In this document: positions 2,627 to 51,199 of the stretch, in pieces | Layout: each line of letters starts with the position of its first letter | How positions within the stretch are numbered: position 1 is the first letter of the stretch | Assembly: GCA_015485495.1 (NCBI GenBank) | Contig: WFTL01000014.1 | Location: 1 to 63,760, forward strand | DNA: 63,760 nt | Source of the DNA: Planctomycetaceae bacterium | GTDB taxonomy: Bacteria; Planctomycetota; Planctomycetia; Planctomycetales; Planctomycetaceae | Reading direction: 5' to 3' | Notes under the pieces: generated by a model | Seen by the model: the letters and a program-made list of their open reading frames with translations, nothing else | Databases searched by the model: none | Told to the model about the DNA's origin: nothing | Program-made: the position numbers and the translations under genes

Positions 2627-3003
2627 AGCTCGTGTGTGTGGTGGTGGGGCACGTTCCGGCGGCATGAGACATGCCGGTTTCCCAGACGCGGGAAGAACGG
2701 GCCGAGCGGCCTGGTGGGTTCCGTAAGGTCCTGAATGGACTCGGCTTGATGCTTTTTGGCGACGGACCTCCGTTTTCCTCGGAATGCGTCCTGCTGGAGG
2801 GACTGGTCGGTGTGAGCGTGAAACTCCTGCTCAATTCTCCATTTCCCCCACGTCATCCTTGCTAAGCACAGGCACCGACGGAAGACTGTGGAATACTGGG
2901 GATTCTGGGGATGACTTTCGCGGCTCGCGAAGTCAAGCAAATCACATGCACGTCCGTATAGAATGGAATTGGGGTCGGACGTCTCTTCACTGGGTGAGCC
3001 ATC
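2627..3003. other. 377-bp intergenic region upstream of the megasynthase
   Basis: No convincing gene. Besides the 2660-2676 hairpin it holds a bulged hairpin at 2913-2934 (GACTTTCGCG-gct-CGCGAAGTC, one unpaired T) and a -10-like TAGAAT at 2959-2964 without a matching -35. The hairpin lies about 25 bp upstream of that -10-like box, a position where a regulator of the synthase could bind. This is inference from position only. Confidence 0.4.
2660..2676 (+). terminator. hairpin after the rhomboid gene
   Basis: Perfect 7-bp inverted repeat CGGCATG-aga-CATGCCG, 33 nt beyond the rhomboid stop codon. It is followed by GTTTCCC rather than a clear T-run, so it is only a candidate intrinsic terminator. 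Confidence 0.35.
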
Positions 3004-6000
3004 GTGTCTTCACGTACGCTGCAGCCGATTGCGGTTGTTGGTCTGGGGTGTCGTTTTCCGGGTGCGCAGAACGCGGATGAGTACTGGAACCTGATTCGCG
3101 ATGGCCGAACGGCCATCTCGCGGGTTCCGGATTCTCGGCTGAATCGGGAGCTGTATTTTCGGCCGGGCGAAAAGGGGCACATCGGCAGCACGTACACGGA
3201 GCTGGCCGGGGTGGTTCCGGAAACGCCGTTCGATCATGGGCGGTATCCGATTCCGGAGGAGCTGGTATCAGCCTACGACAGTGTGCATCTGCGGATGCTG
3301 GAAGTCTGTTGTGAAGCCGTGGGTGATACGGGCATGGATCCGCTGGCCGATCTGGCCGGATCACGGACGGGCGTGTTCATCGGCAACACGGGTGGCAGTA
3401 CGCTGGCCGGCGATCTGGCCTCAGGAACACTCACCCGGGAAGTCGTCATGCGGCTTTACGACGACGTTTTTGCCGACCTTCCGGTTCCTGTGCGTGATGC
3501 GGCCGTGCAGCAGATGCTGGCTGCGGCCGGCCGCCGGCTGCCGGTTCGCAACAGCAGTGGCGGTCCGAATGTGGAAGCACACAGTGTGTCGCAGCTTGTC
3601 AGCCGGGCGATGCGTCTGAATGGTCCGGCCGTGTCCGTGGATGCGGCCTGTGCGTCATCGCTGATCTGTGTGGCCAAGGCGGTGTACGCGCTGCAGCGCG
3701 GTTATCTGGACATGGCGATTGCGGGAGGCTGTTCTTTTACGAAATGGTTCGGGCTGGTGCTGTTTTCGCAGGCTCAGTCCATCAGCGCGACGGGCACGCG
3801 GCCGTTCGACCGCGATGCGGACGGGCTGATCAGTTCCGACGGGTATGCGGCCGTCGTCCTGAAGCCGCTCGACCGGGCCCTGGCGGACGGCGATTCGATT
3901 CTGGGCGTGATCCGCAGTCTGGCCGTGGGAGCGGACGGGAAGGGCAAGAGCCTGTGGGCTCCGCTGCGTGAAGGTCAGATTCAGGCGGTGCGGCGTGCGT
4001 ACAACGACCAGGTGCGTCCGGGAACTCTGCAGTACATCGAATGTCACGCCACATCGACTCAGGTGGGCGATGCCACGGAAATCTCATCGCTGCACGAAGC
4101 GATGCAGGGCGCGTTTCCGCCCGGCCGGCGAATTCCGATCGGCAGCGTGAAGGGCAACATCGGGCATACGCTGGAATGTGCGGGCATTGCCGGTCTGTGC
4201 AAGACGCTGCTGGCAATGAAGCACAGCACGATTCCGCCTCAGCCGTCAGTGGTCACGCCGAATCCGGACATTGCCTGGGAAGAGATCCCGTTTTATCTGC
4301 CTGGGCAGCCGGAACCCTGGCCGGATGTGAATGAAGTCGGTGTGCGGCGTGCCGCGGTGAATGCATTCGGCATCGGGGGACTGAACACCCACTTCGTGGT
4401 GGATGATCGTCCCGAACCGGCGCGGCCGGTTCAGGCGGCTGTGCCGATGCAGTTCGGCACCGGTGTGGATGTGGCTGCGGACGAACGTGTGGCGGTGATC
4501 GGGATGGGGCTGATCGCTCCGGATGCCGACAATGTCGATGCGTTCTGGTCGCTGGTGTCTTCGGGCCGTTCGGCCATCGGCGAAGTGCCTCCGGAGCGAT
4601 GGAATCCGGAATGGTATTACAACCCCGAAGGGGGCCTGCACTGTTCGAAGTCCACGCGCGGCGGATTCATCCGGGGGTTCGAATTCGACTGGAAGAAGCA
4701 CCGGATTCCGCCGAAGCAGATCGCCAACAGCAATCCGCTGCAGTACATGCTGCTGCAGGCGGCCGATATGGCCTTTGCGGATGCCGGACTGTCGGACATG
4801 ACGTTTCCGCGCGATCGGGCCAGTGTCATTGTGGGGACGATGTTCGGGGGCGATTTCAGCAGTCACCTGCAGGTCGGGCTGAATCTGCCGGAAACCGAAC
4901 GGGATCTGCGGAATGCTCTGGCGGAGCAGGGGGTGGATGCGGCGAAAGCCGATGAGGTCGTGGCCCGGTTTCGGGAACACATTCTGGACATCTATCCGGC
5001 TTTGAAAGATGAAACCGGAAGCTTCACCAGCAGCACACTCGCTTCGCGCCTGACCAAGGCATTCAACATGAAAGGCGGCGCGTGGGCTCTGGATGCCGCG
5101 GACGTGTCGTCGGTGGCCGGGCTGCAGGCCGCGATGGATCTGCTGCTGACCGGCAATTCGGATCTGGTTCTGTGTGCGTCCGGACAGCGGGCCATGGACA
5201 TCACGATCTATGAAGAACTGGGTCTGGCCGGTGTGCTGGCGACGGATCGGACTGCACCGGTGTTCGATGCGGATCAGCGGGGAATTGTTCCCGGTGAGGC
5301 TGTGGGGGTTCTGCTGCTGAAGCGGCTGTCCGATGCGGAACGGGACGGGGATCCCATTCGTGCGGTGATTCGTGACGTGTCGGTTGCCTTCAACGAACAG
5401 GATCCGGGAGAAGCGGTCCGACAGAACGTATCGCGTCTGGTGGCATCGGATGCTTCAGCGGCTTTGCGAATCGATGCGGTGGAAACCGCTCGTCCGGTCA
5501 GTCCGCGGCTGGATGCTGCCGAAGCGGAGGGTCTGCAGGAATCGCTGCCGGAAGCCTCTGCGGAGATCCCGGTCGGATCGCTGGTCAGTCAGATCGGCTA
5601 CACGCAGACCGCCGGCGGGATGATGGCCGTCATCAAATCGATTCTGGAGATCGAGCATCAGACGGTCGTGCCGGTGGCGGAGGCCACGGGGCCGTCCGAA
5701 GTGCTCACATCGGCCCGCCGGCCGCTGAAGCTTCCTCAGCAGGCCATGCCGCTGGGACAGCAGATTCCGAAGGGAGCCGGCCGGATTCTGGTCAGCAACA
5801 TGAGTGCTCTGGGCACTGCCGGGCACGTGCTGATTGAAGGAGTGCGGGAAGCGGCCGTGCCGGCGACGGAGGCGGCGCCGGCTGTTGCTGCGGCGCTGCC
5901 GGCAGAGGCGGATTCCGCATCGCGCGGCGCGTCGGCATTCCGGATTCTGCGGATGGGTGCGGTGAGTGTGGCGGAACTGGAAGCGGCTGTGGCGGCCGGC

Positions 6001-9000
6001 GCGGAAGCCGGGTCGTCCGCGTGGAGGGACGGCGATCGGGTTCGTCTGGGGATTGTGGCGGCGGACGAAGCGGATCTGACCCGCAGGCTGCCGGCGGTGA
6101 AGGCCGGTCTGACAGATGTTCAGCGGCGTCACATTCTCGCGGACAACGGCATTCTGATGATGGAACCACAGGCCGGCGGCGGGCATGTGGCCGTCGTGTT
6201 TTCCGGCCAGGGGGCTCAGTATTCCGGCATGCTGGCGGACTGGGTGGACATATCGCCGGCGGTGCGCCGTTTCGTCCAGGAAGCCGATGGGGTTCTGTCG
6301 GATCTGCAGCTTCCGTCATTCGAGTTTCTGACTCAGGACGAAGCCGCCCGGCTGGGCGATGACGTGCTCAACACGCAACTGGCCGTTCTGCTGGCCGATC
6401 TGGCTGCCTGGGAGGCTCTGCAGGAAGCCGGTGTGCGGCCGGATTTCATTGCCGGGCACAGTTATGGTGAGTTTCCGGCTCTGGTTGCAGCCGGAGCCTG
6501 GGATCTGCGGGGTGCTCTGGAAGCCACGCTGCATCGGACCCGTGCGGTTCTGGGGACCGGGGTGACCGGAGCCGCCATGCTGTCGACCACCGCAGATGCG
6601 GAGCGGGTGGCGGAGTTTCTGGAACGGCTGCAGCTTCCATGCGACATCGCCTGTTACAACGCTCCGGACCAGACGATCATTGCCGGCCTGATTCCTGATC
6701 TGGAGCGGCTGAGTGCTGAGCTGCAGGAAAGCGGGTTCGCGAGCCGCACGATCCGGGTGCCGATGCCCTATCACAGCCGGCTCATGCAGCCGGCCCAGCA
6801 CGTTCTGGCGACGGCCCTGCAGCAGGTTCCTCTGAACAGTCCGACCATCCGATTCATCAGCTGCGGCAGCAATCGTCCTCTGGACACGCCTGAAGACATT
6901 CGAGCCGGTCTGGTGGCTGAACTGACGGAACCGGTTCGCTGGTCGACACTGGTGGAAACCCTGATTGCCAGTGACACGCGGGTCATCATTGAAAGCGGTC
7001 CGCGGCAGATTCTCACACGGCTGAACCGCCGGATCATCGGCGGGCGGCCTGTGATGCACATGGCTCTGGACGCCCGTCCGGGGCATGCGGCCGAACAGCA
7101 GGCGCGCATCCGGCTGCTTCTGGAAATGATGGGCCGGACGGCCGCATCGACGGCTGCGTCGTCCGCCACACCGGCAGCCGTTTCGCCGGATTCACCGGAC
7201 CGGCAGTCGGCGGCGCCTTCTGAGCCGTCTGCGGCTGCGGAATTGCCGTCTGTCTCAACACCCTCTTCACCTTCTCGTTCTCTTCCGGAGCCGTCCTCCA
7301 TGACCAGTCACAGATCCCCGGGCAGGATTGTCTGGGTTGATGCCACGGAACGCCGCCGCGCCCGCATGCGGGAAGCAGCTCGGGCCCGATCTGCCGCCAT
7401 GGCCGCAGATTCCGGAGCGTCTCAGGACGCATCCGGCGCCGCATCGAACGGGGTTTCTGCATCCGGCGGAGTGGTTTCGTCCGGCAGTCGGAATGGCCGG
7501 ATGTCCGGCAACGGCGTCGCGACCGCCGCGCCGGTTCCGCCTTCCCAGACGCCACCCGCCGCACCGCCGGCCGCTGCACCATCCGCTGCTGCACCGAGTG
7601 TCACTCAGGTGCCATCCACGGACCCGGCGGCAGCACCGGGACAGAATGGTGCGGCCGGGAACGCGCGTCCGATTCAGGTGCCGGCTCCCGCTGCCCCGTC
7701 ATCTGCCGCGGCCGCCGCGCAGGAACTCAGCCGGGACAAACTGGAATCGTTTGTGCTGGACTATGTGGTCGAACAGACCGGTTATCCGCCGGAACTGGTG
7801 GAACTGGATGCCAATCTGGAAGCGGACCTGGGTGTCGACAGCATTCGCAAGGCGCAGCTTCTGGGGGAAATCGCAGAAACATTTGAAATCCATCAGGCCA
7901 CGCAGCACATCAATGACCTGTCTCTGGATGACTTTCCGGATCTCAATTCGATCATCGACTTTTTCCTGAAGATCAGTGAATCACCGGATGCGGCCCGGAC
8001 CGCCGCTTTCGCTGCCCCGATGGCGCCCCCAGCGCCTCCGGCGCCTGCGGCCGCTCCGGTGTCTTCTTCCAGCACGGCGGCTCCGGCCGCACCCGTTTCG
8101 GCCGCACCGGCTGCGGTGCCGGCAGCGACTGCTTCGGTGACCACGGCGCCGCCCGCAGCGACCGCTGCTGCGGCACCGAAGGCTGCTCCGGCATCGGCAT
8201 CGGCATCGGCTCCGGCATCGCCGTCGCTGTCTCGCGAGGAACTGGTGGCATTTGCCAGGGCATTCGTCGTGGAGCAGACGGGGTATCCGGAAGAGCTGGT
8301 GGAACCGGATGCGGATCTGGAGGCCGATCTGGGGATCGACAGCATTCGCAAAGCCCAGCTTCTGGGAGAAATTGCCGAGCGGTACGAAATGACGCATCTG
8401 GCCGGACAGATCACGGATCTGTCTCTGGATGATTTTCCGACGCTGGAGGCGATCACGGATTTTTTTTTCGAAGCTGCAGGACGCACAACTGAACAGGGAT
8501 CAGATGCTTCCAATTCTGTAGTCGAGTCCGGTTCCGGTTCGGCGGTTCGGGAGGCTGTCGATTCGGCGGCCGTTCCGGAACCGTTTGTCCGGGTTCCGGA
8601 AATCGATCGCGTGATGCAGCGATACGTGCTGCGTGCTGTTCCGGATCCGCTTTCTGAGGACACGGCCGTGTCCGGAACACCGTTTTCCGGCCGGGTCGTG
8701 GTTCTGGGTGACAGCGCTGATGGGCGTGTTCTGGTGGACCGTCTTCAGGAAGCCGGAAGCACGGTGGACGTGATTCCCGTGTCGGCGGATACCGAATCGG
8801 TGGTGGCGGCGTTCGATGCGATGTGGAACCGTCAGCCGGTGGATCATCTTGTGGTGATGACATCGTCCGGAGAGCAGCCGCAGGAGTGGGATCGGCTGCG
8901 GGATGAGCAGATTCTGGCACCGTATTTCGTGATCCAGCGATGGATCCGGCGTCGTCTGGAGACGTTTGGTCGCGGTGAGCGGCCGGCCGGAATTCTGGCG

Positions 9001-50922: not shown

Positions 50923-51150
50923 TCACGAACCCTGTCTGTTCAGTTTCGACAGAATTTCCTCGTGTTCCGGAAACCGGCCTGTTTCCTCTTTGCTGTAGAT
51001 GAGCCGACCATCGACTTCCACGTCGAAGATTCCTCCCGAACCAGGAACCAGTTCGCATTCGATTCCCGTTTCGGACCGGATGGCGGCGGCCAGACTGGTC
51101 GCCTGAGGGGTGTAGTTTCACATGACGCAGTAAGTGATGCGAACGGACAT
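50923..51150 (-). CDS. SelW-like (Rdx family) selenoprotein, UGA read as selenocysteine
   Basis: A 75-residue leftward ORF (ATG 51150..51148, stop TGA 50925..50923) interrupted only by an in-frame TGA at 51120..51118. Read as selenocysteine it gives ITYCVMUNYTPQA, the redox CxxU motif exactly where SelW/SelT/SelH-like proteins have CxxU or CxxC. The rest matches the Rdx thioredoxin-like fold: AAAIRSETGIECELVPGSGG, IFDVEVDGRLIYSKEETGRFP and HEEILSKL. A suitable hairpin follows the UGA (51085-51103), and AAGGTGAT lies just before the ATG. It probably acts in thiol redox chemistry; partners are unknown. A UGA nonsense mutation of a cysteine codon is the main alternative. Confidence 0.85.
51085..51103 (-). 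promoter_or_regulatory. bacterial SECIS-like hairpin
   Basis: On the minus strand GGCG-A-CCA-GTC-TGG-C-CGCC folds into a 7-bp stem with one A-C mismatch and apical loop GUC. The loop G lies 23 nt after the UGA, within the spacing known for bacterial SECIS elements, and CCAGUCUGG resembles the apex of the E. coli fdhF element. Confidence 0.7.
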
Positions 51151-51199
51151 GAAGGATCACCTTCCGTGCAGAGGGTTCGAACGAAGGGGCCGAACATTC

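Follow-up and report, generated by a model that had tools for sequence, protein, structure and literature searches.

The window, a stretch of 63,760 nucleotides from a Planctomycetaceae bacterium (contig WFTL01000014.1), carries on its minus strand a predicted selenoprotein gene of the SelW-like (Rdx) family, with the following features:

50923 to 51150, minus strand: selenoprotein gene of SelW-like type (Rdx family) encoding 75 aa, with start ATG at 51150-51148 and stop UGA at 50925-50923
51118 to 51120, minus strand: in-frame UGA (codon 11) for the predicted selenocysteine, which is the second redox residue in C-V-M-U
51127 to 51129, minus strand: codon 8 (TGC), encoding the Cys in CxxU, with a putative redox role
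51157 to 51162, minus strand: AGGTGA, Shine-Dalgarno-like as read from the sequence, 6 nt 5' of the ATG
51085 to 51103, minus strand: putative bacterial SECIS hairpin at +15 to +33 from the UGA, with the loop GUC at 51095-51093 and the loop G at +23

Apart from one internal UGA, the frame is open across its 75 residues. The predicted product reads MSVRITYCVMUNYTPQATSLAAAIRSETGIECELVPGSGGIFDVEVDGRLIYSKEETGRFPEHEEILSKLNRQGS, and the motif around the UGA is Y-C-V-M-U-N-Y. The initial annotation had described a frame open on both sides of the UGA without naming a strand; we confirmed this on the minus strand, and a plus-strand reading of 50923-51150 revealed no Rdx-like protein by eye. The Shine-Dalgarno site that it had placed upstream corresponds to the AGGTGA at 51162-51157, 6 nt before the ATG. 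It was also right that the gene escapes ordinary ORF calling: in a table-11 listing of ORFs of at least 20 aa, the sole ORF in this frame is a 32-aa fragment starting with GTG (50923-51021), 3' of the UGA, listed together with longer ORFs in other frames. The gene is easily overlooked because only this short fragment is listed in its frame.

Family and fold were computed with selenocysteine represented as Cys. The protein matches the Pfam Rdx profile (PF10262) at 72.1 bits (cut-off 22.6, E 4.5e-20), NCBIfam TIGR02174 at 61.7 bits (cut-off 34.2), and NCBIfam NF041051 (SelTWH_Campy) at 94.3 bits (curated cut-off 88). The name of the last profile suggests members from Campylobacterota, whereas the present protein is planctomycetal. 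The Pfam profile detected no second Rdx gene in the source genome (E 0.001). In a sequence comparison, C17orf37 (2ljk) came out closest among solved structures, together with bacterial Rdx proteins that include 2fa8. An AlphaFold2 model, for which the input was 17 aligned proteins from the window and the homologous loci, reached a mean pLDDT of 93.5 and predicts a thioredoxin-like fold in which a strand at residues 3-8 is followed by the redox motif. The top PDB match of this model is the SelW-related protein 2fa8, with TMq of 0.87-0.91 across its four chains. The 21 best PDB chains belong to six bacterial entries (2fa8, 2obk, 2ojl, 2oka, 3dex and 2p0g), and the titles of 2fa8 and 2p0g call them SelW-related; ranks 22 and 23 are occupied by MIEN1 and mouse SelW. 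Compared with the solved Rdx proteins 2fa8, 2obk, 2ojl and 3dex, the modelled protein has the same fold (TMq 0.77-0.92) and the same position of the redox motif, at an identity of just 29-39%; 2fa8 and 3dex carry C-T-Q-C where the protein described here carries C-V-M-U. With the Pfam and NCBIfam cut-offs passed, the earlier proposal of an Rdx-fold, SelW-type protein holds.

Relatives of the gene were compared at 50 loci taken from contigs of one genome per species and spanning several phyla. UGA occupies the redox codon in 49 of them, the exception being locus L049, which has Cys (TGC); a second Cys form, with TGT at the UGA codon, was found at locus L093. The closest named relatives include Fuerstiella, Planctomycetaceae and Planctomycetota, which marks the organism as a planctomycete. 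Two genomes of the same genus were identified, and both likewise have UGA as the redox codon. Among 99 related whole genomes, 42 have a SelW-like match: 33 of them carry a UGA-bearing copy, and the remaining 9 have stop-free copies only; the position of the UGA was read in 29 of these 33, the other four (G098, G076, G090 and G074) being known only as '1 TGA' in the table. For the codons 3' of the UGA, seven comparisons with the window gene, in which synonymous sites are near saturation, gave pN of 0.17-0.25 versus pS of 0.69-0.84, and two pairs of closer relatives gave pN/pS of 0.089/0.48 and 0.073/0.534. Judged by these substitution patterns, the region after the UGA is under purifying selection and evolves as coding sequence.

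These data bear on the simplest alternative, in which the gene is a pseudogene or the product of a sequencing error, with an ordinary nonsense mutation ending translation at codon 10. The frame does hold a stop, and the assembly is fragmented into 180 contigs. This explanation is nevertheless refuted by conservation: the UGA is shared by 49 of 50 loci from several phyla and by the two same-genus genomes, and no sense codon was seen at the site in close relatives, which also answers the question, raised in the initial annotation, of a strain-specific nonsense mutation. Purifying selection downstream of the UGA and the full selenocysteine machinery in the genome argue against it as well, and we consider it extremely improbable.

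The source genome is 98.19% complete and contains selA (487 bits), selB (333 bits) and selD (221 bits), all over their cut-offs and with no stop in frame, selB being read in a single frame. They sit side by side on one strand of a single contig (C174), selB first, then selA and selD. A tRNA-Sec was detected at 72 bits, with the anticodon tca (ARAGORN). The check proposed for selA, selB, selC and selD has therefore been answered, as selA, selB, selD and a tRNA-Sec with the anticodon UCA are all present, and the planctomycete of the window very probably decodes selenocysteine. A pyridine-nucleotide-disulfide oxidoreductase domain precedes SelD in a gene fusion (positions 5309-7498 of locus L102, minus strand, contig C174); this domain matches TIGR03169 at 342.6 bits (cut-off 310), and the SelD part keeps the motif CRGCGCK, which we take to be the active-site motif, with Cys and no UGA.

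Across the 99 relatives, selA exceeds its cut-off in all 33 genomes with a UGA-bearing SelW versus 18 of the 66 without (Fisher p 1.5e-13), and tRNA-Sec is present in 29/33 versus 18/66 (p 7.7e-9), both p values being inflated by shared ancestry. The search for tRNA-Sec, run with stricter filters, did not find it in four UGA-bearing genomes (G012, G045, G056 and G094). Two same-class genomes (G065, contig C184, and G090, contig C26) have the UGA-bearing SelW gene and selA on one strand, SelW being some 3-4 kb upstream, and their tRNA-Sec is on that contig too. The tRNA-Sec gene is found some 85-235 bases downstream of selA in G031 (contig C8), G037 (contig C795) and G065 (contig C184), unlike in the source genome, where it sits on a contig other than that of selA. 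The genome of the Cys-form locus L049 (G114) has a strong tRNA-Sec (77.9 bits) and no selA match. Five same-class genomes of family f5 (G064, G087, G073, G081 and G084) lack a tRNA-Sec match and have selA-like genes of 146-279 bits, two of them only just above the cut-off (267.9); these genes are possibly relatives of selA with another function.

Read-through of the UGA in the SelW-like frame would also be expected if the codon had been reassigned in this organism, to Trp or Gly for example, so that the residue is not selenocysteine. Against this, UGA terminates the SelW-like gene itself and the adjoining genes for an aldo/keto reductase and an ABC permease, and the selA, selB and selD frames are without any stop. 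The tRNA-Sec and selA/B/D are present, and both homologous loci without the UGA have Cys at that codon (TGC in L049 and TGT in L093). A reassigned UGA is hardly credible on this evidence, and selenocysteine is the reading that we retain.

The window hairpin, GGCGACCAGUCUGGCCGCC (51103-51085), can be written as GGCG-a-CCA-GUC-UGG-c-CGCC. One A.C mismatch divides its 7-pair stem into stretches of 3 and 4 pairs, and relatives with G-C at the mismatch site have 8 unbroken pairs. The SECIS-like hairpin of the initial annotation, with its loop G 23 nt from the UGA, is recovered here, the G at 51095 being at +23. According to the accessible text of PMC13188914, bacterial SECIS elements have a loop of 3-9 nt, a G in the first two loop positions and a spacing of 16-37 nt, together with an MFE of -7.5 or lower and an upper stem of 4-16 bp. 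The window hairpin fits the constraints on loop size, loop G, spacing and energy, with a 3-nt loop GUC, G first, 22 nt from UGA to loop and an energy of -8.1 kcal/mol when folded alone; it would agree with the 4-16 bp stem rule only with one mismatch tolerated. Rfam searches of the locus with relaxed E-values returned three sub-threshold matches only, none of use for SECIS, and at gathering scores the whole window yielded tRNA-Thr only.

The energy of the window hairpin is unremarkable in comparison with shuffles (z -1.77 for 19 nt, -1.18 for 35 nt and +0.26 for 57 nt), and a subset of bacterial SECIS elements departs from the consensus, as stated in the available part of the 2026 review PMC13188914. 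Both points agree with a reading in which the UGA does encode selenocysteine and the hairpin is a mere by-product of protein conservation, SelB using some other signal. Folding energy in the window is insufficient by itself to prove the hairpin, and the support for it is comparative.

For this comparison, 57 of 78 UGA-bearing loci were aligned, 55 of them distinct. L024 and L075, alike in length and sequence, are apparently one contig. The other 21 loci (L050-L057 and L059-L071, from Sulfurospirillum, Acidimicrobiia and allies) were left out before the count, as their hairpins looked to be of another sequence type, and L049 and L093 were excluded for having Cys instead of the UGA. Over the 57 loci, pairing for the 8-pair hairpin holds in 87.0% of cells versus 79.6% in shuffled alignments and 20-48% in slid controls. 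The covariation score is 0.300 versus 0.162 +/- 0.013 in shuffles, 0 of 500 of which reach it, and cells changed on both sides of a pair number 32 versus 10.6, these shuffle statistics being inflated by shared ancestry. The number of pairs with any two-sided change is 4, with no excess over shuffles (mean 3.7; 313/500). Two internal pairs stay paired through two-sided changes in 12 and 7 of the 55 sequences; pairing fails at the outermost position in 19 of them and at columns 28-38 in 22. RNAalifold, unaided, recovered five inner pairs. The 21 loci left out reach 4.05 of 8 pairs on average versus 6.95 in the aligned 57 and carry other hairpins, three from Sulfurospirillum being weak (-3.6 to -6.0 kcal/mol).

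Because hairpin and codons overlap, every gene was also rewritten with synonymous codons, sampled according to codon usage in the longest ORF of the respective locus. Native genes form 6.96 of 8 pairs versus 4.98 in the recoded ones (sd of the mean 0.13), and their mean hairpin energy is -9.52 versus -4.91 (the recoded mean having an sd of 0.31). At the level of single loci, 29 of the 55 distinct ones are at or below 5%; the two same-genus relatives L073 and L074 are not among these. The codon containing the loop G is AGT in 42/55, GGT in 12/55 and CGG in 1/55. The loss of pairing upon recoding, the two internal pairs kept through two-sided changes and the restriction of the loop-G codon to AGT or GGT in 54 of 55 sequences all speak against a by-product of protein conservation, which we regard as very unlikely. 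As far as aligned sequences can tell, the hairpin is conserved, covarying and stronger than coding alone explains.

The locus almost certainly represents a working bacterial gene for a selenoprotein in the SelW/SELENOW-like (Rdx) family, with the UGA at codon 11 read as selenocysteine via the hairpin. In the cell, we infer, selenocysteine is inserted at this codon in the following way. Translation would start at 51150; when the ribosome reaches the UGA (codon 11), SelB with Sec-tRNA(Sec) would bind the hairpin just downstream and insert selenocysteine, with no termination. SelA would convert the charged tRNA and SelD would supply the selenophosphate donor, in line with the roles of SelA, SelB, SelD and tRNA-Sec established for E. 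coli in the accessible text of PMC1794560. The product would be a thioredoxin-like protein of 75 residues with a CxxU redox site after the first strand. Family and predicted fold suggest redox work at CxxU, and the protein most likely acts as a small thiol/selenol oxidoreductase.

The neighbours of the SelW-like gene encode an aldo/keto reductase, an ABC permease and an ABC ATPase. In the flanks of 57 relative loci (up to 1.5-3 kb per side), tblastn gave no match to the aldo/keto reductase or the ABC permease, and matches of 27-41% identity to the ABC ATPase in 8/57. No operon role for these neighbours emerged: they are not conserved beside the gene in the 57 loci, and they give no hint of a redox partner.

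In 13 of the 50 loci (L059-L071, from Acidimicrobiia and allies; match at 3001-3222 in most), UGA also takes the place of the first motif Cys, giving Y-U-V-P-U. These loci are 83-100% identical to one another in DNA, and both UGAs are found in all 13; L052 and L053 have CVPU at the motif position. Their genomes carry selA in 12/13 cases and tRNA-Sec in 9/13. One Acidimicrobiia-type family of 22 genomes has two UGAs in 16 (13 of which are the genomes of L059-L071), one in 4 and no match in 2, and reading 12 loci (L104-L115) showed the double-UGA form. An Acidimicrobiia branch thus probably possesses a redox site with two selenocysteines (UxxU, with a possible diselenide), which would have arisen from a CxxU ancestor via a second Cys-to-Sec change and be served by one SECIS. 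UxxU forms of SELENOW are described in eukaryotes, namely amphioxus and the alga Ostreococcus lucimarinus, in the available text of PMC7539508, to which a bacterial UxxU, if true, would be an independent parallel. We found no report of a bacterial UxxU SelW-like protein in the open literature, where the accessible portions of prokaryotic lists give the family as CxxU with one Sec. These relatives would offer a natural test of the effect of a second selenium atom in a SelW-type site. The window gene is an ordinary CxxU form, UxxU being confined to its relatives.

SELENOW-like proteins with CxxU appear in published lists of prokaryotic selenoproteins (accessible text of PMC1088965, PMC2398784 and PMC13188914) and constitute the most abundant selenoprotein family in two marine surveys, as far as the available text goes. 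The function of the SelW-like protein is called unclear in the accessible part of PMC1088965, which notes an interaction with glutathione. Full gene sets for selenocysteine insertion have also been described in planctomycetes, in the Porphyra isolates P1 and P2, Gemmata obscuriglobus and Isosphaera pallida (PMC4807772, 2016), a paper in whose main text the term 'selw' is absent. Both the CxxU SELENOW-like family and the planctomycete selenocysteine machinery are therefore already known, to the extent covered by these texts, and the present gene adds one member. It is dropped by standard ORF listing and represents a well-supported addition to the family, whose SECIS covariation can be traced across planctomycetes. 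Compared with the prokaryotic SELENOW-like family (PF10262), it agrees in profile score for the family, in the CxxU motif, in a SECIS within the gene and in the UGA at the second redox position; without essential difference from that family, it is a further member of it, from a planctomycete with Fuerstiella among its closest named relatives.
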